This document shows positions 936 to 60,179 of a stretch of DNA of 64,000 nt, one piece after another. This stretch comes from a virus. The notes beneath the pieces are model-generated. The model was not told the origin of the DNA. It was given only the letters and a program-made list of their open reading frames with translations, and did not search any database. Within the stretch, counting starts at the first letter, position 1. Every line of letters starts with the position of its first letter. The DNA lies in the IMG/VR virus record IMGVR_UViG_3300028840_000625, positions 1 through 64,000 of that record, one strand, 5' to 3'. Position numbers and translations under genes: made by a program.

Positions 936-1670
936 ATGATCATAGTAATTCCTGCAAGGGCGGCATCCTACCGCCTACCGAACAAACCGCTGCGGATTAT
1001 CGGCGGCAAGCCAATCATTCAACATACCTATGAGCGAGCCGCTCAAGCCGCTTCGGCTAACCGTATTGTGATTGCTACCGATGCCCCGGAGGTCGAGGAG
1101 GTCTGCCGGCAGTTCGGCGCAGAGACCGCTATGACATACGCGAACCTTGCTAACGGGACTGAGCGGGTTGCCGATCTTGTTAAGCGGTTAGACCTGCCGC
1201 TAAGCGAAGTCATCATCAATGTCCAAGGCGACAAGTTCGAGGTGGATCCGCTGGCGATAGATGAGATCTACCAGTATGCAAAAGAATGTCTAGTCCATAA
1301 CCGGCACCGAACATTGTTCTGCATGCACGAGGAATTTCAATCATCCTCGGAGATCGATGATCCCGGAATAGTCAAGGTAATAACCAGCAAGGATGACAGG
1401 GCGCTTTATTTTACCCGCGTTGGTTTACCAGCGGCCAAACGCCATTGCGGGATCTATGCCTACTATCCAACCTTCCTCGATGCTTACACCATGTTGACAA
1501 ACAGGGAGCTGGAGAAGCAAGAAGGCTTGGAGCAAATGCGAGTGCTTGAAAACGGGATGACCGCATATTGTCCGCGGCTGACATCTTGCAAAACGTCAGG
1601 AAGGGCAATAAACACGCCGCAGGATTTTGATAATGCGGTGACTCGCTACACCAAGGAGGAGGAAACATAA
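936..1670 (+). CDS. kdsB: KdsB-like CMP-Kdo synthetase (3-deoxy-manno-octulosonate cytidylyltransferase homologue)
   Basis: KdsB activates Kdo with CTP to give CMP-Kdo, the donor for LPS inner core and for Kdo-primed capsules. The 244-aa product has the family's usual length and motifs in order: IPARAASYRLPNKPL (res 5-19, nucleotide binding), NGTERVAD (about 68-75), NVQGD (about 95-99, Mg-binding Asp), ALYFTR, GIYAYYP and LEQMRVLENG. The segment that normally reads GVDTPEDL reads AINTPQDF here, so the second metal-binding Asp (D225 in E. coli, as I recall) is Asn. Catalysis could be altered, or the substrate could be a different sugar. RBS GGAGAGG lies upstream of the ATG. Start and length are secure; the exact substrate is not. 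Confidence 0.85.
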   Translation: MIIVIPARAASYRLPNKPLRIIGGKPIIQHTYERAAQAASANRIVIATDAPEVEEVCRQFGAETAMTYANLANGTERVADLVKRLDLPLSEVIINVQGDKFEVDPLAIDEIYQYAKECLVHNRHRTLFCMHEEFQSSSEIDDPGIVKVITSKDDRALYFTRVGLPAAKRHCGIYAYYPTFLDAYTMLTNRELEKQEGLEQMRVLENGMTAYCPRLTSCKTSGRAINTPQDFDNAVTRYTKEEET

Positions 1671-7014: not shown

Positions 7015-7023
7015 GGATGCGCC

Positions 7024-7404: not shown

Positions 7405-7453
7405 CCTTCGACTGTAAAATACACGGAATTGTTTTTTGTTCCGGGAGAATGTC

Positions 7454-7594: not shown

Positions 7595-7599
7595 CCTAT

Positions 7600-7637
7600 A
7601 AATCAAGCGAGCCGCCTTCGGGCGGCTTTATTGATTT
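7600..7637 (+). terminator. Intrinsic terminator with UUCG tetraloop
   Basis: AGCCGCC-TTCG-GGCGGCT is a perfect 7-bp GC stem on a TTCG loop, followed by TTTATTGATTT. An outer AAATCAA/TTGATTT pairing extends the stem. It probably ends the main early transcript; the two genes beyond it need read-through or their own promoter. Confidence 0.85.
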
Positions 7638-7653
7638 AGCCATCAAGAGGAAT

Positions 7654-8004: not shown

Positions 8005-8005
8005 T

Positions 8006-8515
8006 ATGGACGAGATCAATACTCACCACGTAAAGATTAATTACGGCAAGCACGCTGGCGAACTGTTTACGCGCCTGCCGCTTTCTTATCTCCGCTGGAT
8101 GGTGAATAACGGCGCACCTATGAACGAGTATGCTAAAGCCGAATTGATCCGTAGAGGCTGCGAGAAGCTCCCTGATGTCGAGGTTACGCGCCACGCTATT
8201 GACCGCGCCTCTATCCGCGCTATCAGGATATGGCATAGAACCATGATGGAGGATGAAGGTCTTGCTACGTGGCTCGCACGGATGACCTCGGAAGCCTTAA
8301 AGAATAGGGATAAGGTTGGCCCGGATAAATACCGATGGCAAGGGATGTGCTTGGTCATCGAGAAGGGCGAGCATTACCCCATTCTCAAAACCATAACAGT
8401 CAATTCAAAATATCGCGGCAAAAGAAAGTCACGGCACCTCGGAGATCAAACGCATGACACTGGTGCTGTGCGCGAACAGCGCAACCGCTATGACGCTATG
8501 CGGGATTCTCCATGA
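8006..8515 (+). CDS. DUF3820-like protein with extra C-terminal domain, 169 aa
   Basis: Res about 8-50 match the pattern of DUF3820 / exonuclease-X-C-terminal-like modules: INYGKHAGE, then LPLSYLRWMV (usual form FGKYKGxxxxxLPxxYLxW), then a helix ending IRRG. Res 60-169 are unrecognised, basic and beta/alpha mixed. The gene is the last rightward one and overlaps the leftward phosphoesterase by 20 bp, tail to tail. It may be nucleic-acid associated, inferred from the domain's usual company. Confidence 0.55.
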   Translation: MDEINTHHVKINYGKHAGELFTRLPLSYLRWMVNNGAPMNEYAKAELIRRGCEKLPDVEVTRHAIDRASIRAIRIWHRTMMEDEGLATWLARMTSEALKNRDKVGPDKYRWQGMCLVIEKGEHYPILKTITVNSKYRGKRKSRHLGDQTHDTGAVREQRNRYDAMRDSP

Positions 8516-9806: not shown

Positions 9807-9853
9807 AACCACTCCTTCGTTTTAAGCTACAGCCCTCTACCGTAGCTGAAACC

Positions 9854-10024
9854 CTACTCAAGCATGTTGATGACCTTCTGCTTGAATGGGCAAGTGTCAT
9901 GGATCTTGTGCCATAAACATGATCCGCTAATCAACAAAATATAAATCAATAGCAATGCTACCAAGACCTCTAGCACCGCTTCAACAAATAATCTTGTGAC
10001 CCTGTTCTCTATATGAAATTTCAT
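9854..10024 (-). CDS. Small single-span membrane protein, 56 aa
   Basis: The frame encodes a 13-residue polar start, one long hydrophobic helix (about res 13-37, LEVLVALLLIYILLISGS) and a Cys/His-bearing tail (CLWHKIHDTCPFKQK). The start codon lies in a 16-bp palindrome. The RBS is weak. It follows another one-helix peptide and lies near the lysis genes, so a spanin or holin-related role is possible. The rest of the 9807-10129 gap is filled by this and the next peptide. Confidence 0.45.
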   Translation of the reverse strand: MKFHIENRVTRLFVEAVLEVLVALLLIYILLISGSCLWHKIHDTCPFKQKVINMLE

Positions 10025-10026
10025 AT
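10011..10026. repeat. Perfect 16-bp palindrome at a start codon
   Basis: ATATGAAATTTCATAT reads the same on both strands and includes the ATG of the leftward membrane peptide (10022-10024) and a mirrored ATG on the other strand. It could be an operator or chance in AT-rich DNA. Confidence 0.4.
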
Positions 10027-10041
10027 CCCATCTTCTTGCCG

Positions 10042-10149
10042 CTAACCGAGTCTAGACAGCTTGGCTATGGCAACGAAAATCAAAAGAATGAGAAGGGCGA
10101 TTTTAACGCCCAACTCATACCACCAATGCTTATTCAACCGGCCACGCAT
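10042..10149 (-). CDS. Tiny single-span membrane peptide, 35 aa
   Basis: The ATG lies 20 nt inside the end of the DUF1353 gene. The peptide begins MRGRLNKHWWYEL, then has one hydrophobic helix (GVKIALLILLIFVAIA) and ends KLSRLG. Basic residues on both sides of a single helix are typical of phage membrane peptides. It overlaps its neighbour in the manner of a coupled gene. Function is unknown. Confidence 0.45.
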   Translation of the reverse strand: MRGRLNKHWWYELGVKIALLILLIFVAIAKLSRLG

Positions 10150-10573
10150 AAGGATCCGCTTTTGGCTTGTCGTGAGACCGGCTTCCCCAGCCTCCCCAAC
10201 CGCCTATGCGGACTGCATGATACATCGCATCAGCTACACTAAACTCCACGCCTGCCTCGGCTTCCTTTGCCAGTATTCCTTCCCGGAAGATTTCATCAGC
10301 CCGCTTGCGCGTGCAAATCTCACCCCCTTCGCGGCTTAGATAGTAGAGGTAATCATGGACGACTGCCGGTTGGTTATAACTAAAATGCACCTTGCTCAGT
10401 AACCCCTGAAAGAATCGGGGGATACTGGCAAGATCACATTCAAAGCCTTCCGGTATGGTAACGACAAAACCATCAGCGCATGTGTAATCAAAACCCTTGT
10501 GCACACGCCACAAGATCTTGTCTATATCCTCGAGGATTAACGGCCCGGAAAAGAGCCCGTATTCTTCGGACAT
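10130..10573 (-). CDS. DUF1353 family protein, 147 aa
   Basis: The family signature is clear: IPEGFECDLASIPR (about res 40-53), then AVVHDYLYYL with conserved His-Asp, then RADEIFREG. DUF1353 proteins are common near phage lysis and tail genes; their biochemical role is unknown. Full length for the family. It starts one base within the holin-like gene's stop region. The C-terminus has a Gly-Trp repeat (GGWGGWGSR). Confidence 0.8.
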   Translation of the reverse strand: MSEEYGLFSGPLILEDIDKILWRVHKGFDYTCADGFVVTIPEGFECDLASIPRFFQGLLSKVHFSYNQPAVVHDYLYYLSREGGEICTRKRADEIFREGILAKEAEAGVEFSVADAMYHAVRIGGWGGWGSRSHDKPKADPYAWPVE

Positions 10574-10764
10574 TATTTCTTGCCGATTGGTGAAGTGGTA
10601 ATTGCGCGCAGGAAAATGTTGATAAGACCGACCACGGCAACCGTCGCACCAGTAACATCATCAGCGAAGGTTTCCGGGAGGACAACACCAAACTGCGCCA
10701 GCGTACCGGCAACAACCAGCAAGCCATTAGTCACAACTGTTTTCCAGCCTTTCAGGGTTTCCAT
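10573..10764 (-). CDS. Putative holin, 63 aa
   Basis: Two hydrophobic segments (about res 9-27: VVTNGLLVVAGTLAQFGVV; about res 34-55: DVTGATVAVVGLINIFL), a short acidic turn between them and a basic end (PIGKK) fit a small class II holin or holin-like protein. The METLKGWKT opening and the TTSPIGKK-type end are frequent in phage proteins of this kind. The start at 10764 has AGGAG at good spacing; an ATG at 10770 is too close to it. It lies in a lysis region with an endolysin 1 kb upstream. Confidence 0.55.
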   Translation of the reverse strand: METLKGWKTVVTNGLLVVAGTLAQFGVVLPETFADDVTGATVAVVGLINIFLRAITTSPIGKK

Positions 10765-10766
10765 TA

Positions 10767-10856
10767 TCATTGCTCCTGTTTAAGTGAAGAAACAGTCTTG
10801 CATAACAGACACAAGACCCACAACAACAACCCCGCTGCAACCATGAAATAGAACAT
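10767..10856 (-). CDS. 29-aa hydrophobic peptide
   Basis: The frame starts 4 nt after the sigma-factor stop and ends overlapping the next start region. It encodes MFYFMVAAGLLLWVLCLLC followed by KTVSSLKQEQ, a single membrane helix with a polar tail. Position between the sigma-factor and holin-like genes suggests a lysis accessory peptide, but the RBS is weak and the length short. Confidence 0.35.
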   Translation of the reverse strand: MFYFMVAAGLLLWVLCLLCKTVSSLKQEQ

Positions 10857-10860
10857 GCAA

Positions 10861-11391
10861 TTACTCACGTTTAGATAATTCCCTTAACCGATCGAAAGCC
10901 GCTAATCTGATTTGACATATTCTACCTTCTGTCACACCAAAATGCTTCCCTATGTCGGCAAGGGTTATACCTGCGAGGTCGTGCATAAATATCACAGACC
11001 GCGAACGGTCGTCTAGTATTGCAAGCAAGCGGGAGAGATCGATTCTTTCCTCAAACCTTCCAATGGAGTTGACAGAATCATAAGACTCGTCGTATTCCAC
11101 GGAGTGGTATCCATGCTGTGATCTTCTTCCGCGCATGTAATCAATCGCCGCCCCGCGCACTCGCTTGTAACAAAATCCCTTCAACGAGGAATTAAGCCAG
11201 CCCTCAGTCGTAAATCTCCGATAAGACCGCAAGAATTCGCTCCGCGCTTCCTGCATCGCATCCTCGATCTTGTTTGTCACCACTGTCTGCGGGAATATAC
11301 TCACCGCCGACCGAACTACTTGCTGCAACCAACGCTCGTGGCTTCTGAGGATTTCGCCTTCTTCCTTCCTCTTGAGAGATGTATCGCTCAT
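10861..11391 (-). CDS. Sigma-70 family RNA polymerase sigma factor (FliA/WhiG-like), 176 aa
   Basis: Sigma factors direct RNA polymerase to promoters. Region 2 is seen at about res 45-88: GFCYKRVRGAAIDYMRGRR is close to the FliA-type RxRGAxxDxxR signature. Region 4 with its helix-turn-helix is at about res 122-172: LDDRSRSVIFMHDLAGITL, then IGKHFGVTEGRICQI. Region 3 is very short or missing, and there is no region 1, so it is a small alternative sigma. A C-terminal basic end closes it. Inside the leftward operon it could drive late transcription in a feed-forward way. The target promoters are not evident here. Confidence 0.8.
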   Translation of the reverse strand: MSDTSLKRKEEGEILRSHERWLQQVVRSAVSIFPQTVVTNKIEDAMQEARSEFLRSYRRFTTEGWLNSSLKGFCYKRVRGAAIDYMRGRRSQHGYHSVEYDESYDSVNSIGRFEERIDLSRLLAILDDRSRSVIFMHDLAGITLADIGKHFGVTEGRICQIRLAAFDRLRELSKRE

Positions 11392-28647: not shown

Positions 28648-29163
28648 TTAAGTCCTCACCAGCTTGACGCTAGCATCGCCGCCGCGGGACTTTACCGCCC
28701 CGAGGTGATCTAGCATCTTCATAACTGAATCCGGGATTGCGGTCGTGCTGTCGCGGTCTGCTTTGTCGATCTCCAGCTCAAGCACATCAACCTTGATCCG
28801 TCTGAATCCCTTTGTGTCAGGTTCAGCGCTTGGATTTACATTGGCAAGGTATCCAGCAAGCTCAACCGTGGCATCCTTGAGGTTTACCGGAAGCGCATCG
28901 CTGTCAATCCAGTAGCCATCTTGATCATCGACTCCGTAACGCGGCCAGCGTAGCGCCTGCGTGTCGGTTGCCTTCGAGCCTTTCCAGTCATACCAGTCAT
29001 CCAGCGTGCGCGTCGCCATGATGAGCAGCTTGTTCTGATCGTCTGCCGTGTATCCATCCCAATTGGCTGAATAAATCGAATCAGCCCAGAAGGAAGAAGC
29101 ATAAGCATGCGTGACATAACTATTGCTATTTGCCCCGCCTATCGTCGCATCAATCGTCGCCAT
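28648..29163 (-). CDS. Head-tail adaptor (often labelled DnaT-like), 171 aa
   Basis: Contains NSYVTHAYASSFWAD, KLLIMATRTLDDWYDWKG and ALRWPRYGV, which match the phage family commonly named putative DnaT-like ssDNA-binding protein. By position and helical content it is the head-tail connector (gp15/gp6-like). The first 14 nt overlap the end of the glycosyltransferase gene. Confidence 0.75.
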   Translation of the reverse strand: MATIDATIGGANSNSYVTHAYASSFWADSIYSANWDGYTADDQNKLLIMATRTLDDWYDWKGSKATDTQALRWPRYGVDDQDGYWIDSDALPVNLKDATVELAGYLANVNPSAEPDTKGFRRIKVDVLELEIDKADRDSTTAIPDSVMKMLDHLGAVKSRGGDASVKLVRT

Positions 29164-29884
29164 CTCTATCGCTCCTGATCCTTATGTCCCGGTGCGTGTC
29201 GAAGCTGGCATTATTGCAATGGTTCATCGCATGCCACTCGCGCCACCAGAGGTCTGCAAAATCGCAGTCAGTATAATCCCGGAAATACGGGCCTCCCTCT
29301 GTGTAGTGCAGTAAGCTCAGGGTGTCTGCGCTCCTGTTGTGATAATAATCCACAAGGTAATTCCATTCTAGTGGCAAGTCACCGATTTGGTGTAGGCCGT
29401 CCAGCCACTTGAACTGGTGGAGATCCAGCCCGTGCATCTCATTTATCACTTCCGGGGTTAGCTGCTTGCATTTTGCGGTATTCATCAGCATGACCGATGA
29501 CCAGTTCTTGTAACGGTAGAGCGTTTGCTTGGTGCCAAGGTATTTGATCTTGTTCTTCGGCTGATGGTCGTGCTTGACAACCTGCACCGCGTAGTTCTCG
29601 TCCCTGATTTTCCAGAGGTTATTGATGTCATCGAGCACGAGCATGTCGCAGTCCATGAAGATGGCCCAACCCTTGTACCCGCAAAGGTACGGCACTAGCC
29701 AGCGCGTGAAGGCAAACTCGTTTGACTGGTTTGGGTCTGTCGGCCTGTCGTGGATATGCTTAAAGTGTCGCTTGGCGATCGGCGTGATTGATACCGGCAC
29801 CGATGACCTCTCAATGATGCTATGGCATAGCGTATGGTATGCGGCGGCTTCCGCATAGTCATAGCCGATGAAGATTCTGATCAT
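29150..29884 (-). CDS. GT8-like glycosyltransferase, 244 aa
   Basis: Starts with IRIFIGYDYAEAAAYHTLCH, the typical N-terminus of GT8-like nucleotide-sugar transferases, and carries the metal-binding DxD as FMDCDMLVL (about res 82-90). Further on LEWNYLVDYY and LLHYTEGGPYF are family-type acceptor-side segments. A GT-A fold enzyme is expected. It may add a hexose to a glycan made by the neighbouring enzymes. The ATG at 29884 has GGGGAAAG upstream. Last gene of the sugar island, overlapping the adaptor gene. Confidence 0.75.
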   Translation of the reverse strand: MIRIFIGYDYAEAAAYHTLCHSIIERSSVPVSITPIAKRHFKHIHDRPTDPNQSNEFAFTRWLVPYLCGYKGWAIFMDCDMLVLDDINNLWKIRDENYAVQVVKHDHQPKNKIKYLGTKQTLYRYKNWSSVMLMNTAKCKQLTPEVINEMHGLDLHQFKWLDGLHQIGDLPLEWNYLVDYYHNRSADTLSLLHYTEGGPYFRDYTDCDFADLWWREWHAMNHCNNASFDTHRDIRIRSDRDGDD

Positions 29885-30255
29885 GCTACTTTCCCCTTTA
29901 CGCGGCAAACAATCGGGCCGTCATAGCCCGTCCATCCGGCCTCGTATTCGATTTCGTGAATTCTCACGTTGATGAGTTGCTGCTTTGGTTTAATCATGCA
30001 CTCGGTCACGCGGCCGTCATCGTCCATCCCGATAATTAGGCCCCGAGACACCTGCACCACATCTCCCGGCTCTAATCCCATCTCGATGCTTTGCGGATAA
30101 AACGAAAAACACACCCACTCCCCTTCACTGCTTACTGCCTTCGGTGCTGGTTCCATGACAGCAGGAGTAGCTGCCGGTATTTTGTTTGCTATAGCACCGA
30201 GTCCTACGGCACCTGCGGCCTTGCCGAACAGCTTGAAGAACTCTCTACGTTTCAT
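29881..30255 (-). CDS. Tat-signal exported protein, 124 aa
   Basis: The N-terminus MKRREFFKLFGKAAG contains RREFFK, close to the twin-arginine consensus (S/T)RRxFLK, then a weakly hydrophobic stretch (AVGLGAIA) and an Ala/Pro-rich cleavage region. The mature part (about 85 aa) is a small beta domain (GLEPGDVVQVSRGLIIGM). Twin-arginine signals are rare in phage genes; the role is unknown. The ATG at 30255 overlaps the sulfotransferase end by 11 nt. Confidence 0.6.
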   Translation of the reverse strand: MKRREFFKLFGKAAGAVGLGAIANKIPAATPAVMEPAPKAVSSEGEWVCFSFYPQSIEMGLEPGDVVQVSRGLIIGMDDDGRVTECMIKPKQQLINVRIHEIEYEAGWTGYDGPIVCRVKGKVA

Positions 30256-30871
30256 TTTCCAAGATCCTCTTGAGCATAAAATCGTCATAGCCAAATCGCC
30301 GGTATAGCTGCGATTCATTAGCAATAATCCGGTAAGCATAATAAGGCGCTTCCTGCATTATCCGTAGCGGGTTCTTTGTGCCACCGATAACCTGCTTTGC
30401 GCTGGCCCTGATAAAGTCTGCGTCAAAGCGCTCCTCGTAATACTGCAAGGCGCGGATCAACTCGTTTGCAAGATCCTCGTATTTCCATAGGGAAAAGGAA
30501 TCATAGTAATGCATCCACTCCATGTAATATTCCCAAACAATCCCCGGACGTTCTGCGACGCGGCCATAGAATTCCCGGAGATCGGGACACCCGCACTCCT
30601 TCTCCAGCCGATGATCCTGCTGCCAGTTCCAATCCTTGTGTCTGGTGTTGGTGTGCTTACGCGCGCGGTGGTGCCAAAGACTATTCAGCATCGTTACAGG
30701 ATGCCGGACAAAAGCAAAGGCCGGCTTGCCATCCACCTGCGGACATTCATGCGCCTGATAGATAGGATCACCGATGTCCTTGTATCCCATTTTCCTCAAG
30801 ACATTGGCAACCCAACGGCCTCCCGTTTTGGGAATATGAATGAAGATCGAGTTCTCTAGTTCAATCGCCAT
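30245..30871 (-). CDS. Sulfotransferase family protein, 208 aa
   Basis: Transfers sulfate from PAPS to a hydroxyl group, here possibly on a sugar. The 5'-phosphosulfate loop is FIHIPKTGGRW (about res 9-19) and the 3'-phosphate motif is FAFVRHPVTMLNS (about res 52-64); both are intact. The remainder is helical with WKYEDLANE. Shorter than eukaryotic enzymes but usual for bacterial and phage forms. No PAPS-synthesis gene is in the window, so host PAPS is needed. Confidence 0.8.
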   Translation of the reverse strand: MAIELENSIFIHIPKTGGRWVANVLRKMGYKDIGDPIYQAHECPQVDGKPAFAFVRHPVTMLNSLWHHRARKHTNTRHKDWNWQQDHRLEKECGCPDLREFYGRVAERPGIVWEYYMEWMHYYDSFSLWKYEDLANELIRALQYYEERFDADFIRASAKQVIGGTKNPLRIMQEAPYYAYRIIANESQLYRRFGYDDFMLKRILENET

Positions 30872-30979: not shown

Positions 30980-31717
30980 TCAGTCCTTGTAGACAAACAG
31001 GAAGTCGCCGTCATGCAGCGGAATAAGCTGCTCGTTGCTGGCGACATCGACGCCTTCTGCGACCGAGGTGATTTCCTTTAAGCCTTGTCCCCGGATGTTA
31101 TAAAAGCACCGGTATCCAATATCCATCAGGAAGTGGAAGGTATCAGCAACAGGGCCGTCATTGAATTTCGGATAAACCTCGCACATAACCGCTGGCCGCT
31201 CGTTTGATATGGTCAACGTAGCGCCGCGCAAGACATCCAGTTCATTGCCTTCGACATCGATCTTGATGAGACCAATTCCCATGTTATCCGGTGAGCTATC
31301 AATCCATGACTGCGCCCATGAGTCAATAGACACCATCTCAACGGTTATCGGCTGACCGCCGACAAGATCCCGGAGACCGCTATTGGATAGCCGCTTGTCA
31401 TCAACGTAGAAAGTAACTTCATCCTTGTCCTCTCTACCAACGGCGTAGTTGATCGCGGTCACATTGTCATTCCTGTCGGCAACCAGCTTGAGCTGCTCAT
31501 AAACTGGCGGCACAGCCTCGAAGGAATATACATGCTTGGCAAGACCGGCCCAGAAGTGCGTATACATACCAACCGCCGCGCCGATATCGAGAACAATGGA
31601 ATTCTTGTCAATGAACTTCGCGGTTTGCCCGAGCATATAGTGCTGCCGGTGAAGGTTGTAGATATTTTGATTGAATACCCGTCGCTGCAATACGGAGTCA
31701 GATAGATTCAAGGTCAC
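30980..31717 (-). CDS. FkbM-family SAM-dependent methyltransferase, 245 aa
   Basis: SAM motif I is VLDIGAAVGMYTHF (about res 42-55) and the FkbM signature is LIKIDVEGNELDVLRGA (about res 150-166). These enzymes O-methylate sugars and natural products. Full length for the family. It belongs to the sugar island and may methylate a deoxyhexose. RBS GAGGAG lies 5-8 nt before the ATG. Confidence 0.85.
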   Translation of the reverse strand: MTLNLSDSVLQRRVFNQNIYNLHRQHYMLGQTAKFIDKNSIVLDIGAAVGMYTHFWAGLAKHVYSFEAVPPVYEQLKLVADRNDNVTAINYAVGREDKDEVTFYVDDKRLSNSGLRDLVGGQPITVEMVSIDSWAQSWIDSSPDNMGIGLIKIDVEGNELDVLRGATLTISNERPAVMCEVYPKFNDGPVADTFHFLMDIGYRCFYNIRGQGLKEITSVAEGVDVASNEQLIPLHDGDFLFVYKD

Positions 31718-32783: not shown

Positions 32784-33081
32784 CGGAGGACTCCTCAGCT
32801 TGTGGATTATCGTCAACATACTTGTCCAGATTGTCGGCGTAATTACGCAAGGCGGTTGCCAGTTCACGCGGATCCATCTCTGTCGGAAGCGTCAGGTTAA
32901 AAAGCTGCTGCTTTATAAAGCGCGGCTTGGGCGCGTCTTTCGATGCCGCATTGAAATCAGGCGGCACAGCCACATGGCTGATGATGGTATTCATGGCAAG
33001 CACGTGCATACCCGTGTCAATCTGGAATTTCGGGGCAATCGTCATATCATGCGCCATAATCATTTGCTGCTCTTCGCTCAT
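32770..33081 (-). CDS. Hypothetical protein, 103 aa
   Basis: Soluble protein with beta-rich N-terminal half (FQIDTGMHVLAMNTIISHV) and helical C-terminal half (DPRELATALRNYADNLDKYV). No recognised domain. It lies between a TM/coiled-coil gene and the oxygenase with 4-14 nt overlaps on both sides. It may be an accessory of either. Confidence 0.55.
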   Translation of the reverse strand: MSEEQQMIMAHDMTIAPKFQIDTGMHVLAMNTIISHVAVPPDFNAASKDAPKPRFIKQQLFNLTLPTEMDPRELATALRNYADNLDKYVDDNPQAEESSDAVG

Positions 33082-33356
33082 CGTCTTTCCTCCTGTTTGT
33101 AGAGTTCTTTCAGTGATTCCTGCGCAGCGTCTAGCCGGATCTTTTCGTCAGTAGTCAATGCGCGTCCCTTCCTTGCTTCTTCGAGGATGTAAACCCTATC
33201 CTCAAGCTGCTCAATACGGATGCCGCGGTAGATGTCGCCTGATTGCTGTTCCATTACGACCATCTCTTTCTCGTGGCTTTCCTTTGTTACAAAGTAACTG
33301 GTTGTCGCTACGGTACCGCCGACAATCGTTATGACAAGAGCTATGCCTGCTTGCAT
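33078..33356 (-). CDS. Membrane-anchored coiled-coil protein, 92 aa
   Basis: Starting at ATG 33356 (GGAG 9 nt upstream): one N-terminal helix (AGIALVITIVGGTVATTSYF), then a long charged coiled coil (RIEQLEDRVYILEEARKG, then AAQESLKELYKQEERR). It resembles small phage i-spanin-like or septal-type proteins in layout only. An ATG at 33371 overlaps the preceding gene and is less well spaced. Confidence 0.55.
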   Translation of the reverse strand: MQAGIALVITIVGGTVATTSYFVTKESHEKEMVVMEQQSGDIYRGIRIEQLEDRVYILEEARKGRALTTDEKIRLDAAQESLKELYKQEERR

Positions 33357-33360
33357 GGTG

Positions 33361-34236
33361 TTAATCTCCATTCTGAACCTCGCTGAAAGAGAAGCCGCTA
33401 GACATCAGCCGCAGGTAAGGTCTACCGGTACGCATCTCATCAAGAGTCCATTGCGTATAAGCAAGATCGCAAGCCCATTGCTTACGGGCCGACTCTGACG
33501 GGAAGAAGGGGTTGTTGATCATTCGCAGATCGTGGCTTGTAACGTTGTGCGCCATACTCCCCGCGTTAAAAGAAAAGGCCGGCACTCCTGCGATGACCGC
33601 CTCAACAGCCGCGTTGGAATTATATGTAATACAGGCATAAGCTCCGTATAAATCATCCATCAGCGTGTCATTGCGGGAGTTGATTACCCCTAGCATGTCA
33701 GGTGTCCTGCTGCGGGCAAGCGGATGTGCACGGAATACAACCGGCTTGTCAGTCATGGATCTCAGGTCAGTGCAGGTCTTTTGGCACCACTGGATAATGT
33801 CAATGTCTTGCACGCTGGCGTCTGACGGGACCTGTCCGCAAACAATAATGTGCTGACCTTCGGTTCTCCGGGGATGCAGGTTCACATCGAGGAGTTCCCA
33901 CCGATCGGCCGGACACGCAAGGTTATGGAATTCAGCATGGTTGTTCAGTCCGTTCAGACCGACCATGTAATACTCATCGCGCTTGACAAAGCCCTTCTCG
34001 ATGACAATGACATCTTTCCCTGCAAGGCGCTGTTGGCGTATAACGTTGCCGCGAGCATAGGAACACGGGACTCCCTGCTTGCCGATACCGAAAACAATGG
34101 CGACATCGACCGGCGTGTAGTTATCAACCGAGTAGATGGTGACATCTTCGTTGACCTTTGCCACGCCTTCCGCAAAAGCCTTGAGCGCCTTTTGGTGAAC
34201 CTTGTTATCCCCCGGAGTAAATATTCCTACCTTCAT
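33361..34236 (-). CDS. KpsS/capsule-biosynthesis-like GT-B protein, 291 aa
   Basis: The C-terminal half shows VVFRAHPLAR (about res 166-175) and ACITYNSNAAVEAVIAGVPA (about res 203-222), a layout shared by the GT-B polysaccharide-biosynthesis family that includes KpsS/KpsC-type Kdo transferases. Next comes HNVTSHDL, INNPFFP and a Trp-rich end. N-terminal MKVGIFTPGDNK is a Rossmann start. If it uses CMP-Kdo, the KdsB-like early gene would supply it; this link is inference. RBS AGGAGGAAG upstream. Confidence 0.6.
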   Translation of the reverse strand: MKVGIFTPGDNKVHQKALKAFAEGVAKVNEDVTIYSVDNYTPVDVAIVFGIGKQGVPCSYARGNVIRQQRLAGKDVIVIEKGFVKRDEYYMVGLNGLNNHAEFHNLACPADRWELLDVNLHPRRTEGQHIIVCGQVPSDASVQDIDIIQWCQKTCTDLRSMTDKPVVFRAHPLARSRTPDMLGVINSRNDTLMDDLYGAYACITYNSNAAVEAVIAGVPAFSFNAGSMAHNVTSHDLRMINNPFFPSESARKQWACDLAYTQWTLDEMRTGRPYLRLMSSGFSFSEVQNGD

Positions 34237-34272: not shown

Positions 34273-34938
34273 CTATGCGTTGACAGCTTCGCCTTGAATG
34301 GCTGTTACCACAAAACCCATGCCGTCATCAGCATCATAGACATGGCCCGGGATCTTCTCGTACTGAGTAGCCCATTGCTTGACCGTGTATTCAGACTTTG
34401 ACAAGAGTTCAGTGAACTCGTCTTTTGTGTAATGGCGAAAGTGGAAGGGATGCGTGTCACGGTTGAACGGTACCACTTCCTCGTTAGGCACCGAACCAAC
34501 CAGCACAGAAGCATGTTCGCCGTACATTTGGATTAATGCCTCATCATCCTTGACATGCTCGATGGTTTCTATGCTGACGATTACATCAACCTTCTGCTTT
34601 TCCCCGTCAAAGCCATCCACCAACGCAGCCTCAAACTCTTCGCGCTTGCTGAGGTCTGCTTGCTGGAATCTATTATTGCCTTCCCCATAAGCACGGGTAG
34701 CAGCATCTACAGCAGGCTGATGGATATCGATGCCGATTACACGCGCTTCCGGGAAAGCGGTGGCGAGCATATAGGTGCCGTATCCAATACCGCAGGCGCA
34801 GTCAACAATGTTGATGCTGGGGTTGTCACCGAACAATGCCTTGATCTGGTTTATAGCGAAGTTATATCTATGCTTGTGGTTCGGCTTGATACCGTCCAGC
34901 GTTTCAGCTACTTGTCTTTCTCCGGTCTGGGGCAACAT
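34273..34938 (-). CDS. SAM-dependent methyltransferase (class I, UbiG/type 11), 221 aa
   Basis: Motif I is NIVDCACGIGYGTYML (about res 42-57), motif II has VIGIDIHQPAVDAA, and motif IV is VIVSIETIEHV. ATG 34938 has AAGGAG with good spacing. The upstream extension to 35025 lies inside the preceding gene. Probably methylates a sugar or small molecule of the island. Substrate unknown. Confidence 0.8.
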   Translation of the reverse strand: MLPQTGERQVAETLDGIKPNHKHRYNFAINQIKALFGDNPSINIVDCACGIGYGTYMLATAFPEARVIGIDIHQPAVDAATRAYGEGNNRFQQADLSKREEFEAALVDGFDGEKQKVDVIVSIETIEHVKDDEALIQMYGEHASVLVGSVPNEEVVPFNRDTHPFHFRHYTKDEFTELLSKSEYTVKQWATQYEKIPGHVYDADDGMGFVVTAIQGEAVNA

Positions 34939-35155
34939 ATAGCGGATCTCCTTTCTTGGTGAATGGTAAACACTTCCAGTCGGGGTGAAGATAAAAGACT
35001 TCGGTCCCGTCCTCAAGTTGCTCAAGGGTCTTGAACGGGAACTCTACATCCGGGTCATCGGCATAAAGGTCTTTAACCTCCAAAAAGATTTCAGCAAGCC
35101 GCATACCTTCCTTGATGTAGAGGATCTTGTTTATAAAATCGAGTTCTATATTCAT
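34904..35155 (-). CDS. Hypothetical protein, 83 aa
   Basis: Starts 4 nt inside the end of the GDP-mannose dehydratase gene and overlaps the methyltransferase start by 35 nt. Mixed alpha/beta (MNIELDFINKILYIKEGMRL, VFYLHPDWKCLPF). No known domain. Found between sugar enzymes, but nothing in the sequence shows a related function. Confidence 0.5.
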   Translation of the reverse strand: MNIELDFINKILYIKEGMRLAEIFLEVKDLYADDPDVEFPFKTLEQLEDGTEVFYLHPDWKCLPFTKKGDPLYVAPDRRKTSS

Positions 35156-36186
35156 GCGAGTTGCGCGTGGTATATGATCGGATCCACGCCCTCTCTCGAT
35201 AAGTCGTAGTCAACCATCTCACGAATCATGGTCTCGAAATCATAAGCTCGCTTCCAACCAAGTTTGTCCTGCGCCTTTGCTGGATTACCGAGTAACAGCG
35301 GAACTTCTGACGGCCGCATCAGATCCGGGTTTTTCATCAGGTGTTCGGCCCAGACATCGATGCCGACATAGGTGAAGGCCGTGTGGACGACATCCCAAAC
35401 CCTATGCTTTTCGCCCGTGGCAATCACAAAGTCCTCCGGCTCGTCCTGTTGCAGCATGAGGTACATGGCATAAACATAATCACGAGCATGGCCCCAATCG
35501 CGGTAGGCATCGAGGTTCCCGAGTTCAAGGAACTGCTGCTTGCCGGCAACGATACGCGCAACAGCCTTGGTGATTTTCCGCGTTACAAACTCTTCACCCC
35601 GGAGCGGTGATTCATGGTTAAACAGAATCCCGGAGCAAAAGAAATTCTCGTATGCTTCGCGGTAATTCTGCACGGCATAGTGCGCGGCTACCTTCGCAAC
35701 CGCATAGGGGCTGCGCGGGTGGAATGGCGTATCCTCTCCCTGTGACTCGACATTGACAAGGCCGAACATCTCCGAGGTGCTAGCTTGGTAGAGTCTCGTG
35801 GATGGCGAGAACTGGTTGATCGCGGCCATGATGTTCAGCGCGCCAACGGCGTTTATTTGAAACGTGGCAACCGGCGAAGCGAATGACTCCGGGACAAAGG
35901 ACATGGCTGCAAGGTTATATACCTCGTCGAATTGTCCCTCATCAATCACATTGTTGACCTGCGCGGAGCATGTCACATCGAAATTAAGGAAGGTCAGGCC
36001 TTGTGCTGGATTGTGTTCCTCATACTCTGACTCCGTGACAAGACTAAGCTCCTTGAGCCGCCAGAGGTTCATGCTGGCCGTCCTGCGCATGCCTGCATAG
36101 ACCTCGTAACCCTTTTGCAGTAATAGCTCGATTAGGTAAGCGGCATCCTGCCCCGAGGCGCCGGTGACAAGCGCGGTCTTTTTCAT
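35152..36186 (-). CDS. gmd: GDP-mannose 4,6-dehydratase, 344 aa
   Basis: Converts GDP-mannose to GDP-4-keto-6-deoxymannose, the branch point to fucose, rhamnose, perosamine and colitose donors. Extended SDR features: GASGQDAAYL (about res 9-18, NADP site), YNLAAMSFV, catalytic STSEMFG and SPYAVAK (Tyr-x3-Lys), then LFNHESPLRG and RDWGHARDYV. Full length. Canonical GQDGAYL is GQDAAYL here, a mild change. No follow-on reductase or epimerase is in the window. ATGA overlap with both neighbours shows a coupled operon. Confidence 0.95.
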   Translation of the reverse strand: MKKTALVTGASGQDAAYLIELLLQKGYEVYAGMRRTASMNLWRLKELSLVTESEYEEHNPAQGLTFLNFDVTCSAQVNNVIDEGQFDEVYNLAAMSFVPESFASPVATFQINAVGALNIMAAINQFSPSTRLYQASTSEMFGLVNVESQGEDTPFHPRSPYAVAKVAAHYAVQNYREAYENFFCSGILFNHESPLRGEEFVTRKITKAVARIVAGKQQFLELGNLDAYRDWGHARDYVYAMYLMLQQDEPEDFVIATGEKHRVWDVVHTAFTYVGIDVWAEHLMKNPDLMRPSEVPLLLGNPAKAQDKLGWKRAYDFETMIREMVDYDLSREGVDPIIYHAQLA

Positions 36187-36986
36187 GACAACACCTTCGG
36201 CCTTTGTGTTTCCGGTTTTTCTACTCCCGGATCCTTGTCTAGCAGACCGCCTTGCGCTTTCCGCTCCGGGCCTTTGAGGTGCTCCATGTATTCCCCGAGT
36301 ATTGACTCCTGAAAGGGATGGTTGCTTTGCTCATTCGGATTCAGGTTCTTGTACGGGATAGCCATCGCCGTGCGGATAAAGTCCATTGAGTAACAATCAT
36401 GGAATTCTCCGAGGTATTTGAACGCGCCTTCCGCATAGGTGTTATACCAAAGCGGCATAAAGAAATTGTTTGCGGGATGGTTGGTATTGAAGCCGACAAA
36501 ACCGTTTTCGCTGTAGAGCCACTTGCGCTCAAGCACGGCCATATAGAATTCTGGCTCACCTTCCTTTACGGCAAATATGCCTTGCAGGAAGTTCGGCGGG
36601 ATATCGGCCTTGAATACTACGTCCGCATCAACCCACGCAACGATTCCGTTTTGCGAGTGGCATGCGTCGCAGATAGCGAACACTTTTCGGTAGAACCGAT
36701 TAGCGTCATATCGGAAGTTGTAGACCTGCTGCTGCGGATTCTGCGGGTTGATATGTTTCCCGGAGTAAATCGGATCACTGTTATTCAGCACAGCCTCGAT
36801 CTGCTTGAAATCATCGAATGAGTAAAGGTCTTTGTAGATAATGCGGTCATCCTTCGGCGCGGCTGACGGGATGCCATGCTCATAGTAGACCGTGAGTGTT
36901 TGATCCTTCCAGTGCTTTAGGAAGCCTTCTATAAACCGCTTCCCGTATTCATGATAGCCCTTCTGCGAGAAGGAAGTAATAATCAT
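36183..36986 (-). CDS. Glycosyltransferase-like protein with DxD, 267 aa
   Basis: First gene of the sugar island after the capsid block. Opens MIITSFSQKGYHEYGKRF; a DxD (GIVAWVDADVVFKA, about res 114-127) precedes ENGFVGFNTNHP, as in small GT-A enzymes of polysaccharide clusters. C-terminal segment EQSNHPFQESILGEYMEH is likely the acceptor-binding helix. Donor and acceptor are unknown. Confidence 0.65.
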   Translation of the reverse strand: MIITSFSQKGYHEYGKRFIEGFLKHWKDQTLTVYYEHGIPSAAPKDDRIIYKDLYSFDDFKQIEAVLNNSDPIYSGKHINPQNPQQQVYNFRYDANRFYRKVFAICDACHSQNGIVAWVDADVVFKADIPPNFLQGIFAVKEGEPEFYMAVLERKWLYSENGFVGFNTNHPANNFFMPLWYNTYAEGAFKYLGEFHDCYSMDFIRTAMAIPYKNLNPNEQSNHPFQESILGEYMEHLKGPERKAQGGLLDKDPGVEKPETQRPKVLS

Positions 36987-37055: not shown

Positions 37056-37460
37056 TTAGCTTTCCTCGGTTTTGCGACGGCGGCGGCGGCGTGGTTTCTT
37101 TGCGTCACTGTCTGCTGTGACACCACGCGGTTTGTTCACCGTTTCCGCTTGTTCATTAATAATGAACGCAGGCTCTTGTTGAGCAGATTTCTCGTCGCTG
37201 GAGAGACTCTGCCCTGACGGCTCTTCGATGTCAACCCCTTGCGGTATCGAATCCAGTACGGCTTTGTGCAGCGTTTTGTCGGCGGTATCCATATTGTCTG
37301 ACAGCACGAGCTTGTCTTTTACAAGGCCCGTGTGCATCTCGCCATAGCGTTCCCATCCGCGCCACTGACCACGACCAAGATCATGCGCCCAATCGACTTC
37401 ATTGATCACGGTCGTTGCGCCGGTTTTCTTGTTGCGGATTTTGACTGTAGAAAGTTTCAT
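37056..37460 (-). CDS. Hypothetical protein with Arg-rich tail, 134 aa
   Basis: Located between the coat-gene terminator and the sugar island. The N-terminal half is beta-like (TVKIRNKKTGATTVIN, RGQWRGWERYGEMH); the C-terminal half is disordered and ends KKPRRRRRRKTEES, likely nucleic-acid binding. It may be a head-associated or adaptor protein, judged from location alone. Confidence 0.5.
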   Translation of the reverse strand: MKLSTVKIRNKKTGATTVINEVDWAHDLGRGQWRGWERYGEMHTGLVKDKLVLSDNMDTADKTLHKAVLDSIPQGVDIEEPSGQSLSSDEKSAQQEPAFIINEQAETVNKPRGVTADSDAKKPRRRRRRKTEES

Positions 37461-37552: not shown

Positions 37553-38695
37553 TTAACCTGCAATACGGGTTGCCAGTTCCGGACGGACCAGCTTGGCACC
37601 CCACAGGATATCCAGTTCCCAAGTGACCTGCTTGTACTGGCGGGACACCTCAAGGCGCAGGCTGATACCGGTCTGCGGATCAGTCATTGCCATGATGCGG
37701 CTACCGAGCTGCATGTCGGCAGTGCTCTGCATCAGCGGACGGTTTGCAAAAGCAAAGGCGTCACGGTGGAAAGCCAGATTGACCGTATGATCACCCACAA
37801 CCGTTACGGCTTCACTGGAAGCATCAGCCTTGAGGTTAGGCGTAATGCTGACAGCGACATTGCCGGTGGAAACGATGACGGCAGTGGCATTGACCACGTA
37901 AGTCTGCGTATCACCTGCAATGGTGAAGATGTCACCCGGAAGCAAAGTTGTGTTGTTGCCACCAGTCATATCGATCGAGGAGGTACCAGCGGCAACCGCG
38001 CTACCGACCACAATAGCAGAAGCAGTCGCGCCACCAGCGGTATGAACCGGCACGGCATCATCCGCATACCAGTCAATGCCGTACTTGCGGCCGATCTCAC
38101 CTTCGATCTTGACGCCGGTGCTGCCGGTCTTTTCCGCATCAGCGAACGGTGCCAGCGCGAGTGCGTTGGCTTCCGCATCGTAGCTCAGCACACCGCGGCG
38201 ATTGTCGCGCGGGGCAAGCTGCTGGTGCAGGACCTTGCGAGCGTTTGTAGCTGCCACAACGGTAGAGGCGAAAGGCGTAGTACCAGCGGTGCCGGTATAG
38301 CCGTAGACGCCCTTATACTCCGCAAAGATGTCCTCATTCACGGCATTGGCAAGAGCACGAATGGCCTCGCTCATTTGCATGGGAATGAAGTGCTCGTTGC
38401 GGTCGATTTCTACCATGTCCTTGTCGGTCAGATAGAAGTTGGTCTTTTTCCAGTTGTCCAGAGGAATCTGAACCTTGCCCGGAGTGGAGTTAGAAGCGCT
38501 GGAATAAACAGGCGCAGGAGTAACATCCGAGGCGGTAATACCGGAAGGAATCGGCACATCAATCGTGTCACCCTTTTCGGCAGCTTCGCGTGAGTAGTCA
38601 CCATTCACCAGTCGCGGCATGGAAGCCTGCTCACGAAGGGCAAGCAGACCACGCGCGAGGATTTTGGCCATAATGTTGTCAAGAGTATTCGACAT
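37553..38695 (-). CDS. Major capsid protein, P22 coat-like, 380 aa
   Basis: N-terminal MSNTLDNIMAKILARGLLAL, RLVNGDYSREAAEKGDTIDV and LDNWKKTNFYLTDKDM are typical of P22 gene-5-like coats with the HK97 fold. An Ig-like insertion (about res 220-300, Thr/Val/Gly-rich) is present, as in P22. C-terminal VSRQYKQVTWELDILWGAKLV is the usual end. Between the scaffold and a terminator, as expected for a highly expressed gene. Confidence 0.9.
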   Translation of the reverse strand: MSNTLDNIMAKILARGLLALREQASMPRLVNGDYSREAAEKGDTIDVPIPSGITASDVTPAPVYSSASNSTPGKVQIPLDNWKKTNFYLTDKDMVEIDRNEHFIPMQMSEAIRALANAVNEDIFAEYKGVYGYTGTAGTTPFASTVVAATNARKVLHQQLAPRDNRRGVLSYDAEANALALAPFADAEKTGSTGVKIEGEIGRKYGIDWYADDAVPVHTAGGATASAIVVGSAVAAGTSSIDMTGGNNTTLLPGDIFTIAGDTQTYVVNATAVIVSTGNVAVSITPNLKADASSEAVTVVGDHTVNLAFHRDAFAFANRPLMQSTADMQLGSRIMAMTDPQTGISLRLEVSRQYKQVTWELDILWGAKLVRPELATRIAG

Positions 38696-38756: not shown

Positions 38757-39572
38757 CTATTCGCCTATGGTGTAATCACCTTTGGCGATTGCCTCGATGT
38801 TGTCATTCAGCGCGTCCTGATTGCTTCTGCTGATAACACCCCTTTCGGAGTCTACACCGAGATTGCCGTTGGCACCGCCTCCAGCACTGCCCTCAAATAA
38901 AAACGGAGAATCCATCAAGAGAGAACGAGCCCACTCCTCCATTGTGATAGGCTGTTTACCGTCCTTTCCGTAGATGACTTCGCCGTCAGCTTTGGGCAAG
39001 GGATTGCTGTCATCGTCCAGCGTCCACACCGATTTGCCGCGGTTAATAATATCAACCAATGCGCCTTTCTTCGGGGTGCCCACTTCCATGACAGCGTTTT
39101 GCAGGGAAGAGTTGATTAACACATCCTCGAGCCGCTCGCGGTATTTGCCAGCGGACCCCTGCGAGTTTTCAAGTTCAGATTCCAGCTTGTGGATTCTTCC
39201 ATCGTAATCAGACTTGAGCCTCTCAAGCCTGCGGCCAATCCGCTCTTCGACAACTTCGTCGATGCGGCCGGCCTCAATAAGTTTCTGTTCCTCGATCGCC
39301 GACATCTTCTCAATCGCTTCACGAGCCCGCTCCGGGTCAATATCCTTGTACTGCCCCATTTGCTCTTTCAGCGCCGCGGCTTCCTTCTCCGCTTCGGTCA
39401 GTGACTCCACCTTCTTACGGAGGTCGATATTGTTGTTGCGGAACTCATCTAGCTTGGCCTTGTAGTCCTTGTCATCGATGTCAAGAACATAAGAATCACC
39501 TTGCTTGGTGTAAAGATCGCGTAGCGGTTCGGCAACGTCAGTCAGGTTTTTGATGATTGTCTTTAGTGCCAT
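38757..39572 (-). CDS. Capsid scaffolding protein, 271 aa
   Basis: Highly charged coiled coil over res 40-150 (FRNNNIDLRKKVESLTEAEK, EERIGRRLERLKSDYDGRIH), followed by a Gly/Asn-rich tail, with the typical opening MALKTIIKNLTDVAEPLRDL. It occupies the classic position just before the coat gene. No protease domain is present. Confidence 0.8.
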   Translation of the reverse strand: MALKTIIKNLTDVAEPLRDLYTKQGDSYVLDIDDKDYKAKLDEFRNNNIDLRKKVESLTEAEKEAAALKEQMGQYKDIDPERAREAIEKMSAIEEQKLIEAGRIDEVVEERIGRRLERLKSDYDGRIHKLESELENSQGSAGKYRERLEDVLINSSLQNAVMEVGTPKKGALVDIINRGKSVWTLDDDSNPLPKADGEVIYGKDGKQPITMEEWARSLLMDSPFLFEGSAGGGANGNLGVDSERGVISRSNQDALNDNIEAIAKGDYTIGE

Positions 39573-39638: not shown

Positions 39639-40727
39639 CTAACCAAATTCAGCGCACTTGTCTAGAAATTCCATTGATTTCTTTTCCAGTAACGCGGGAA
39701 GCGTGTGGCCGTAGAAGTGGATCTTCCCCGGATTCCTTTTTGCCAGCTTTGCAAGCGCAACTCCGCTCGCCAGCATGTCGGGGCGGGTATTCCATACGCC
39801 TGCGCCTTCGGTGTTTTCCAGTGGATTGCCATTCTCGTCAGTTCCCTCGACAAGCCCTTTGTCGGTCATGTCAACGCCTTTGCGCTGCGCAACCCCGTCA
39901 ACATAGAAGCTGGAATCCTCTCGCCATCCGCAGTCTGTCCCTACCAGCACGGCATCAGCAGCCCCCATGAAGATCGCCGCTGACAGGGCACGGTTGACTA
40001 CGTTATACCCGCCGCCCATGCAGTCATGAGTCGGGAATCTGGTGTTATACATCTCGACTTCGTTTTTATAACCGGTCGCTGAGTGGAATATCATGACTTC
40101 CGCGGCATCCTCCCCAGCGTCCGGGGGTTCGTACTCACCAGCTTTCCAAGAGTCATAGTCATCCTCAAGGACTCGCTGCGCCTCTTGGTCGGTCAGTGTA
40201 CCTAACCAATCGGCGAAAGGCATCCCGGCCTTTAGGTATTTGTATAGCAGAGGATCACTTGAGCTTGCAATGATGTGCGTCATGCCGGGAGCTTTATAGA
40301 TCTTTTCCGGTCTTGCAATATGTGCCCCGGGATCCATGCTGACGCCATACTCCATCTTGATCCCTTGGTCATGCAGGAATTTGATGGCTTGCTTGCACGC
40401 AAACAGCACCTTGTTGCCAGCCTTGGAAGCCTTGCGGATTTCCTTGACCGAATCCTCTTCCTTTAGCGACGGCCCGGATCCAATGACATAAGCGGTTGTG
40501 TTCGGCTGCAACATCCCGGCTTTGTAGATCGGAGTGCCTTCTTCCACGCGCTTGGCATAGAAATCCAGATTGTCGGGGTAGTTGTCGATGTTCGGATTGA
40601 CAAACTTAATCTTTTGCCCGCCCGTTTGCATGGTCGTCTGATTGGTGTGGCCGCGTTCATATTGCTGCGCGTGGATCAGCGACATATGGCGCACATGGAT
40701 TGGCGCCATCATTGGCTCTGTCATCAT
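39639..40727 (-). CDS. Maf/DUF115-like protein (MptE-like fold), 362 aa
   Basis: The core has YVIGSGPSLKEEDSVKEI (about res 80-97), FACKQAIKFL and YGVSMDP, typical of DUF115 (6-hydroxymethylpterin pyrophosphokinase MptE-like and flagellin glycosyltransferase Maf). The later segment CMGGGYNVVNRALSAAIFMG with VLVGTDCGW also fits. Maf proteins place nonulosonic acids on flagellin. Placed directly before scaffold and coat, a role in glycan transfer to a virion protein is attractive but unproven. Confidence 0.65.
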   Translation of the reverse strand: MMTEPMMAPIHVRHMSLIHAQQYERGHTNQTTMQTGGQKIKFVNPNIDNYPDNLDFYAKRVEEGTPIYKAGMLQPNTTAYVIGSGPSLKEEDSVKEIRKASKAGNKVLFACKQAIKFLHDQGIKMEYGVSMDPGAHIARPEKIYKAPGMTHIIASSSDPLLYKYLKAGMPFADWLGTLTDQEAQRVLEDDYDSWKAGEYEPPDAGEDAAEVMIFHSATGYKNEVEMYNTRFPTHDCMGGGYNVVNRALSAAIFMGAADAVLVGTDCGWREDSSFYVDGVAQRKGVDMTDKGLVEGTDENGNPLENTEGAGVWNTRPDMLASGVALAKLAKRNPGKIHFYGHTLPALLEKKSMEFLDKCAEFG

Positions 40728-59153: not shown

Positions 59154-60179
59154 CTAGCTTAGTAATTGAATTTCGATCTCTTTGGCGATGTGCATCATCA
59201 TTTTCGGCGGTACCGACATCCCGCAAACATAGCCGGCCTCCTCCTTGCCGTAGTCATAGTCATCGGGGAATGACTGGATCCGCGTGAAATCCATCGGGGC
59301 AAATCCATATGGCTCGTCCCAATACATTTGACAACCCCAGCTACCCGAGGCCAGTGTCGGGAAAGGCTGGTTGCCGTCGATGCGGTACCAGTTGAAATAA
59401 GATCCCTTGGGGTGTCCGTGGCTTAGTGACTGTCCGGGCTTTACGCGCTTCCACGTTGTATATGCCGCGGCCTTGGATAAATCCTTGCCCGATCGGTCGT
59501 GTAATACGACATCCTTGCACGGGATTGGCTTGTAGTTGAAATCAAGCTGGAGCCTCTTGCCGGTCTTGTGCGCGATGAAGAATACGCGCTCCCTGCGTTG
59601 CGGCACTTCCATGAAGGCCGAATTCAGCAGGAACATTTGAACCTCATAGCCGATTTCCTTGAACTGCTGGAGGATCATCTTGACATAGCCCTTTGCGGCG
59701 CCGATTAGCAGGCCTTTGACATTCTCCGCAACGATAACTTTTGGCTGTAGCTTGTCGGCCATGTCGATGAAGTGGAAAAACAGGTCATCAAGAACCTGCT
59801 TGGCTTGGCCTTCCCGGAAATACTTTTCTTTGCCCCAATCCTTTTCACGGTTCCCGGAGAGGGAGAAGTTGCTGCATGGTGGCGAGCCGTCAAGGATGTC
59901 GAGGTTGAATAATTCCTTCGGCAGTTCATCGTTCGGGATCTTGTTGAAATCCTGCACGCCCATGAGGTACGAGCGGACTGGATTGAAGTTCTTGCGGTAG
60001 ATCGTCATCATGTCTTTGTCGATCTCGACCCCGCCGAGCACGTTATATCCTGCGAGCTTATAGCCCATGCTAGAGCCGCCACCGCAATGGAAAGCTGAGA
60101 AAACGGTCTTGCCGTTTTTCGGCACCTTCTCAAGATCCTTAAGGTACCAGCTATGCTTGCATGGTTTAATCATATTCAA
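59154..60179 (-). CDS. DNA (cytosine-5) methyltransferase, 341 aa
   Basis: Motif I VFSAFHCGGGSSMGYKLAG (SAM site), motif IV GSPPCSNFS (catalytic Cys, about res 96-104), motif VI VIVAENVKGL, motif VIII VPQRRERVFFIA. Target-recognition region about res 225-300 and motifs IX/X (FTRIQSFPDDY, VPPKMMMHIA). All intact, so active 5mC methylation is expected. No restriction partner is visible, so self-protection against host restriction is likely. Overlaps the ParB-like gene by 14 nt. Confidence 0.95.
   Translation of the reverse strand: MNMIKPCKHSWYLKDLEKVPKNGKTVFSAFHCGGGSSMGYKLAGYNVLGGVEIDKDMMTIYRKNFNPVRSYLMGVQDFNKIPNDELPKELFNLDILDGSPPCSNFSLSGNREKDWGKEKYFREGQAKQVLDDLFFHFIDMADKLQPKVIVAENVKGLLIGAAKGYVKMILQQFKEIGYEVQMFLLNSAFMEVPQRRERVFFIAHKTGKRLQLDFNYKPIPCKDVVLHDRSGKDLSKAAAYTTWKRVKPGQSLSHGHPKGSYFNWYRIDGNQPFPTLASGSWGCQMYWDEPYGFAPMDFTRIQSFPDDYDYGKEEAGYVCGMSVPPKMMMHIAKEIEIQLLS

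Follow-up and report, generated by a model that had tools for sequence, protein, structure and literature searches.

Results

Genes at the locus

The window analysed here covers bases 1-64000 of a virus record 74,595 bases long, from a tailed phage with a tape-measure gene and a P22-type coat. On the minus strand it carries an intact open reading frame with an ATG start and exact coordinates, which encodes a Maf-like protein (Table 1). In transcribed order, the head side consists of the genes for a MuF-like protein, a 99-aa ORF, the Maf-like gene, scaffold, coat (related to the Mardecavirus coat, 45-46%) and a small ORF. This is followed by an island of sugar genes, namely GT-A, an enzyme of the GDP-mannose dehydratase family, a small ORF, a methyltransferase, GT-B, two small ORFs, an unassigned ORF, an FkbM methyltransferase, a possible sulfotransferase, a further small ORF and GT8. 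The island begins at 36986, 2.65 kb beyond the end of the Maf-like gene; the original prediction gave 3 kb.

Table 1. Annotated features of the head operon, the sugar island and the distant KdsB-like gene, in transcribed order for the minus strand.
Feature	Position	Strand	Evidence
MuF-like protein, upstream of the Maf-like gene	43302-41041	-	
Maf/MptE-like (PF01973, DUF115) protein, 362 aa; proposed CMP-sugar-type protein glycosyltransferase	39639..40727	-	Pfam and AlphaFold2 fold
Scaffold, directly downstream of the Maf-like gene	38757..39572	-	phrog_206, E 3.6e-37
P22-type coat; candidate acceptor	37553..38695	-	phrog_283, E 5.9e-77
Small ORF between coat and island; position retained in Maf-positive relatives	37056..37460	-	
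GT-A-like enzyme with invariant DAD; family fused to DUF115 in other phages	36183..36986	-	D120, A121 and D122 invariant in 11
GDP-mannose 4,6-dehydratase family enzyme	35152..36186	-	PF16363, 379.8 bits; TIGR01472, 373, below cut-off 415
Class I methyltransferase	34273..35025	-	PF13649, 43.3 bits
GT-B enzyme resembling retaining beta-Kdo transferases (GT99/GT107), 291 aa	33361..34236	-	AlphaFold2 fold and motifs
Island ORF without Pfam, NCBIfam or PHROG match; homologue in L011	31755..32867	-	
FkbM-type methyltransferase	30980..31717	-	PF05050, 61.4 bits vs 22.7; TIGR01444, 92.5 vs 37.7
Possible sulfotransferase (weak)	30245..30871	-	phrog_3347, E 8e-4; Sulfotransfer_1, 14.7 bits, below 22
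GT8-type glycosyltransferase, island end	29150..29908	-	PF01501, 25.4 bits vs 24.3
KdsB-like CMP-Kdo synthetase, distant from the island and encoded on the opposite strand to the late genes	936..1670	+	NCBIfam, PF02348

Within the island, the small ORF at 29881-30339 (-) contains a twin-arginine-like stretch (KRREFFKLFGKAAGAVGLGAI), and a 97-aa ORF at 33078-33371 (-), located between GT-B and the unassigned ORF, combines a single predicted membrane helix with a charged tail. The dehydratase is missing from the island of one relative (L004) and hence not constant, so that its product represents no core need; in another relative (L011, 10793-12808) the dehydratase ORF reaches 671 aa, roughly double the normal size, and its Pfam match falls into two stretches. 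For GT-A, a profile compared with solved structures returned nothing at E <= 1, and a scan with the single sequence found no relatives. The MuF-like protein contains a linker rich in proline and, in its C-terminal part, HELGH, a zinc metallopeptidase-like motif; the length of the MuF ORF in relatives ranges between about 370 and about 2290 aa. Far from these genes, an ORF at 4399-4740 (+) encodes Gly-Tyr-Gly/Asp repeats, which may simply be a repeat read in frame.

Family and fold of the Maf-like protein

The Maf-like ORF matched PF01973 (MptE-like/DUF115) in two stretches at 59.7 bits against a cut-off of 34.6 (E 3.9e-16), and thus far above chance. Both motifs named in the original prediction are present, GSGPSL at residues 83-88 and SMDP at residues 130-133, but GSGPSL is only partly invariant, as only G83, S84, G85 and L88 are shared by all 16 aligned relatives, and its counterpart reads GSGSTL in L011 and GSGNTL in L004. 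Foldseek placed an AlphaFold2 model built from the alignment of these 16 relatives (pLDDT 83.6, pTM 0.81) closest to the Magnetospirillum Maf (5mu5, E 2e-7), with MptE next. VIA-align likewise gave the highest score for 5mu5 (Z 18.3, 223 residues, 3.3 Å), with residues 46-350 of the model lying on residues 244-502 of the chain and the rest of the chain uncovered, followed by archaeal MptE (8sd5; Z 14.8, 199 residues, 3.1 Å), mammalian sialyltransferases (up to Z 10.5, for 2wnf), SteA (Z 10), Cst-I and Cst-II (Z 8.4 and 8.2) and thiamin pyrophosphokinase (Z 8.1). A profile of five relatives compared with structures also retrieved Maf 5mu5 first (E 1.9e-4), and MptE second with a non-significant E of 0.6. 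The MptE/Maf fold inferred earlier from the motifs was therefore recovered by fold prediction, and a fold outside this family, which would have refuted the proposal, did not appear.

None of the Pfam sialyltransferase models matched the ORF (at E <= 1 only MptE-like and a chance Peptidase_S9 match were returned), and PHROGs held no family for it, the sole match being a sialyltransferase at E 0.085. Judged by its predicted structure, the protein is the central Maf domain in a soluble form that stands alone, with short extensions and a sialyltransferase-like fold. Mafs are described, in the available part of the source, as built of an N-terminal Rossmann-like, a central and a C-terminal helical domain (PMC11339370). 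An assignment as canonical Maf was rejected, as the protein has only 362 aa and lacks the N- and C-terminal domains; it may consequently be called Maf-core-like in its working, but not Maf by domain build.

A constant place beside scaffold and coat

Combining coat-based, Maf-based and GT-A scans yielded 23 distinct records with the Maf-like gene, including the source stretch. Wherever the sequence ran past this gene, the order Maf-scaffold-coat was retained (20/20 records); the three others (L029, L032, L033) end within the Maf-like gene or just beyond it. The upstream neighbour varies, being MuF in most records, no MuF in L005 and minus-strand genes in L024 and L025. Since the downstream side is constant and the upstream side variable, we regard the gene as linked to scaffold and coat. 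The adjacency noticed in the single genome is thus a shared trait, and its absence from every relative, which would have spoken against the proposal, can be discarded. A viral scan with the single Maf-like sequence found no relatives, whereas the alignment-based scan did recover them; tblastn with the copies of the source, L005 and L093 detected no close relative among named phages (50,697 records), and none was confirmed in bacterial genomes.

Co-occurrence with the sugar island

A GT-A gene was located 3' of the coat in 17/17 Maf-positive records with coat and enough sequence, and including L031, where the start of GT-A is cut at the contig end, all 18 checkable Maf-positive records have the island (18/18); L012 and L025 stop too soon to be scored. 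Conversely, eight coat relatives whose Maf place is covered lack the Maf-like gene (L006, L007, L008, L010, L013, L014, L015 and L016), and their whole records contain neither PF01973 (0/8) nor GT-A (0/8). Two records remained uncounted, L003, which has the island with the Maf place cut off, and L009, in which the Maf place is cut off and no GT-A occurs. As the records are related, this co-occurrence may go back to a single event or a few: the best coat tree needs three changes, and a single origin is not ruled out. A Fisher test (17/17 vs 0/8) ignores ancestry and is not taken as proof. In a separate 43.9-kb record (L089), GT-A, a methyltransferase and GT-B are found by a terminase gene without DUF115.

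Gene fusions and DUF115 at other head genes

The GT-A family scan returned 225 relatives, of which the best 79 were kept as loci. Among these best 79 of 225, a PF01973 domain was present in 44 records, 14 of source type and 30 of 64 others (one of the 30 below the curated cut-off), and in 26 records, many of them near copies, GT-A and DUF115 were joined in a single ORF, usually with a further domain in the middle. In the fusions L087 and L048 (756-764 aa) a Methyltransf_24 domain separates GT-A from DUF115, while the short fusion L063 has none in between. With a profile of seven fusions, hhalign matched the two halves at E 1e-52 and 7.7e-15, and both crossed pairs were negative.

The L063 fusion is located between terminase and portal. 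L093 combines portal, a major capsid protein of another PHROG family (phrog_9953), two DUF115 genes, GT8, GT-A and Methyltransf_24; a scan based on it retrieved only itself. These fusions and the L093 arrangement indicate that DUF115, GT-A and head genes are linked in more than a single phage lineage. As additional observations, the L087 fusion ORF (8989-11283) lies near the terminase small subunit gene, and the DUF115 pair of L093 is arranged in tandem (6631-8351) directly 3' of the major head protein.

Possible Kdo-related enzymes

The AlphaFold2 model of GT-B (pLDDT 82.8) resembled WbbB (Z 11.0), KpsC (10.2) and KrkA (7.5); ranks 1-15 of the structural comparison were all occupied by these three (Z 11.0-7.4), the next, unrelated structure scoring 6.6, and ranks 1-9 of Foldseek were all Kdo transferases. 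A sequence profile of GT-B also matched the WbbB and KpsC structures (E 0.0016-0.0067). The enzyme has QXXXD at 135-139 and HP at 171-172, with Q135, D139, H171 and P172 invariant in 11 sequences. As far as the available portions of the sources go, roles have been ascribed to both the QXXXD and HP motifs, the QXXXD aspartate being the nucleophile in KpsC (PMC10148158, PMC9587256). Against this resemblance, Pfam Capsule_synth did not match GT-B in any of the 12 records (0/12). GT-B seems to belong to a family common to many phage sugar islands.

The KdsB-like protein exceeded the cut-off of NF003952 (201.9 bits vs 193), fell short of that of TIGR00466 (147.5 vs 155.2) and matched PF02348 at E 6.4e-40. 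L011, the nearest relative, carries a copy with 42% identity in its record. Of the two metal-binding aspartates, D99 is kept and the second is replaced by Asn (N226) in both copies; both are strictly conserved in KdsB according to the accessible part of PMC3149649. KdsB occurred in 2/28 records tested and was absent from one 88-kb Maf-positive record, and a single-sequence KdsB scan found no relatives. NeuB was found in none of the same number of records (0/28), most of them fragments; the host could supply the sugar.

Kdo is an acidic sugar of Gram-negative bacteria. The Kdo-transferase fold and motifs of GT-B together with the encoded KdsB-like enzyme point to Kdo, which is the best-supported CMP-sugar of this phage system, the donor itself being inferred; the scarcity of KdsB among the records and its replaced aspartate count against it. 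The donors of Mafs are CMP-activated acidic sugars, and CMP-Kdo is accepted by two Mafs, as stated in the portion of PMC11339370 at hand.

Ser/Thr columns in the coat

Coat columns that are fixed in 20 coats (19 Maf-positive and L003) and differ in 7 Maf-negative coats made up 3/22 fixed Ser/Thr columns, namely T145, T271 and S293, versus 4/179 others (Fisher 0.03), and Ser/Thr residues are somewhat more frequent in the region 216-300 (26.7% vs 22.3%). L013 and L016 were excluded for their long branches and L025 as too short. This weak signal, drawn from aligned sequences alone, is only suggestive, and we place no weight on it owing to the exclusions before counting, the shared ancestry and the post hoc test.

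Discussion

A Maf-type fold, constant adjacency to the shell genes and a sugar-building gene set together suggest that the phage probably sugar-coats its own particle. We favour, with some confidence, a soluble Maf-like transferase of the CMP-sugar type, which initiates a glycan on one of the virion proteins. The analysis shows its family and fold, its linkage, the co-occurrence, the gene fusion and the Kdo-transferase fold and motifs of GT-B, while the activity of the Maf-like enzyme, the sugar donor, the acceptor and the sequence of the reactions are only inferred. Counting against this reading are the possibly single origin of the co-occurrence, the scarcity and altered aspartate of KdsB, the lack of NeuB and the occurrence of GT-A, methyltransferase and GT-B without DUF115 in L089. 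In our model, the enzyme would be produced together with scaffold and coat and, in the cytoplasm, would most likely take a CMP-sugar as donor and attach the first sugar to Ser/Thr in a protein of the virion, either the coat or another late structural protein. GT-A, GT-B, GT8, the methyltransferases and possibly the sulfotransferase would then extend and decorate this sugar. The original prediction had already named the enzyme a candidate for attaching a sugar to a structural protein: its link to the island is now backed by co-occurrence and GT-A fusions, but the enzyme is not a Maf proper, and a structural-protein acceptor, coat above all, is inferred from gene position, with no activity, glycan or acceptor demonstrated.

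Fold alone leaves the chemistry unfixed, because the family includes, besides Maf, the pterin pyrophosphokinase MptE (Z 14.8), thiamin pyrophosphokinases (about 8) and SteA (10). The protein might be no sugar transferase at all but perform MptE-type pyrophosphokinase or other nucleotide chemistry, with the proximity of sugar genes otherwise caused; the Pfam family is named after MptE, and R246 of the phage protein is aligned with an Arg of MptE. Yet Maf fits the model better (Z 18.3), and the close association and fusion with glycosyltransferases render such a function improbable. Even more remote appears glycosylation of phage DNA by the island and the Maf-like enzyme. Phages are known to glycosylate DNA and a DNA methyltransferase-like gene is present at 59154-60179, but the source record has no enzyme of the thymidylate synthase/hydroxymethylase family, the island lies among head genes, and in Maf the fold acts on proteins.

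More serious, although still unlikely, is a glycosyltransferase with a non-virion acceptor, where the island would remodel host LPS or capsule, for instance against superinfection, and the late-operon position would only be convenient. GT-B does resemble Kdo transferases of capsule and O-antigen, and KdsB and GDP-mannose dehydratase supply pathways of surface sugars. On the other hand, a hydropathy scan revealed no multi-TM protein in the island, its sole hydrophobic segment being that of 33078-33371, and no GtrA flippase was found; moreover, DUF115 adjoins the scaffold/coat pair in every informative record (20/20), stands by an unrelated coat in L093 and occurs in fused form between terminase and portal in L063. 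We therefore argue for a virion-protein acceptor on the grounds of the constant scaffold/coat position, its recurrence at other head genes, and the lack of both multi-TM or GtrA proteins for surface conversion and a thymidylate-synthase-type enzyme for DNA hypermodification.

A more specific form of virion glycosylation, which we put forward only tentatively and consider doubtful, is a Kdo-based, methylated and perhaps sulfated capsid glycan, for which the KdsB-like enzyme would supply CMP-Kdo, the Maf-like protein would transfer it to coat Ser/Thr during assembly, and the beta-Kdo transferase and other enzymes would extend it. If true, Kdo would here be attached by O-linkage to a protein of a virus, and phages would have in the DUF115 domain a general means of coating their heads with sugar. 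A few phages are known to glycosylate their virions. In the titles and abstract beginnings searched, with most subscription journals outside the search, we found neither a phage DUF115 protein acting as virion glycosyltransferase nor a CMP-sugar route of virion glycosylation via a Maf-like enzyme. A one-domain Maf beside the coat gene, fused elsewhere to GT-A, would offer a minimal setting in which to study the choice of acceptor by Maf domains; it would further explain Kdo-type sugar genes in phage head operons and provide a searchable genomic mark of glycosylated capsids.

Comparison with known systems

The closest parallel is offered by the Maf flagellin glycosyltransferases such as that of M. 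magneticum (5mu5), with which the phage protein shares the central PF01973 domain and the fold, and whose genes likewise lie beside those of an abundant self-assembling protein with sugar genes nearby. In contrast, the phage protein has 362 aa compared to the 632-residue 5mu5 chain, is devoid of the flanking Rossmann-like and helical domains, and is encoded in a head operon, with NeuB in none of the records tested. MptE, the archaeal 6-hydroxymethyl-dihydropterin pyrophosphokinase (8sd5), belongs to the same Pfam family and has a similar fold, whereas the phage protein has extra helical parts and is located among glycosyltransferases. The GT29 and GT42 sialyltransferases (ST3Gal-I, Cst-I, Cst-II) have a comparable core fold (Z about 8-10.5) and use CMP-sugars, but no family-level sequence match to them exists in the phage protein. 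Similarly, the island GT-B resembles WbbB (GT99), KpsC (GT107) and KrkA in fold, QXXXD and HP, and differs from these beta-Kdo transferases in lacking a Capsule_synth match, in its 291 aa and in its location in a phage head operon. Finally, in the mycobacteriophages Che8 and Rita, whose description mentions no Maf/DUF115 or Kdo enzyme in the part available to us, phage-encoded glycosyltransferases place glycans on the major capsid protein, showing that enzymes of a phage can glycosylate its coat (PMC11256854).
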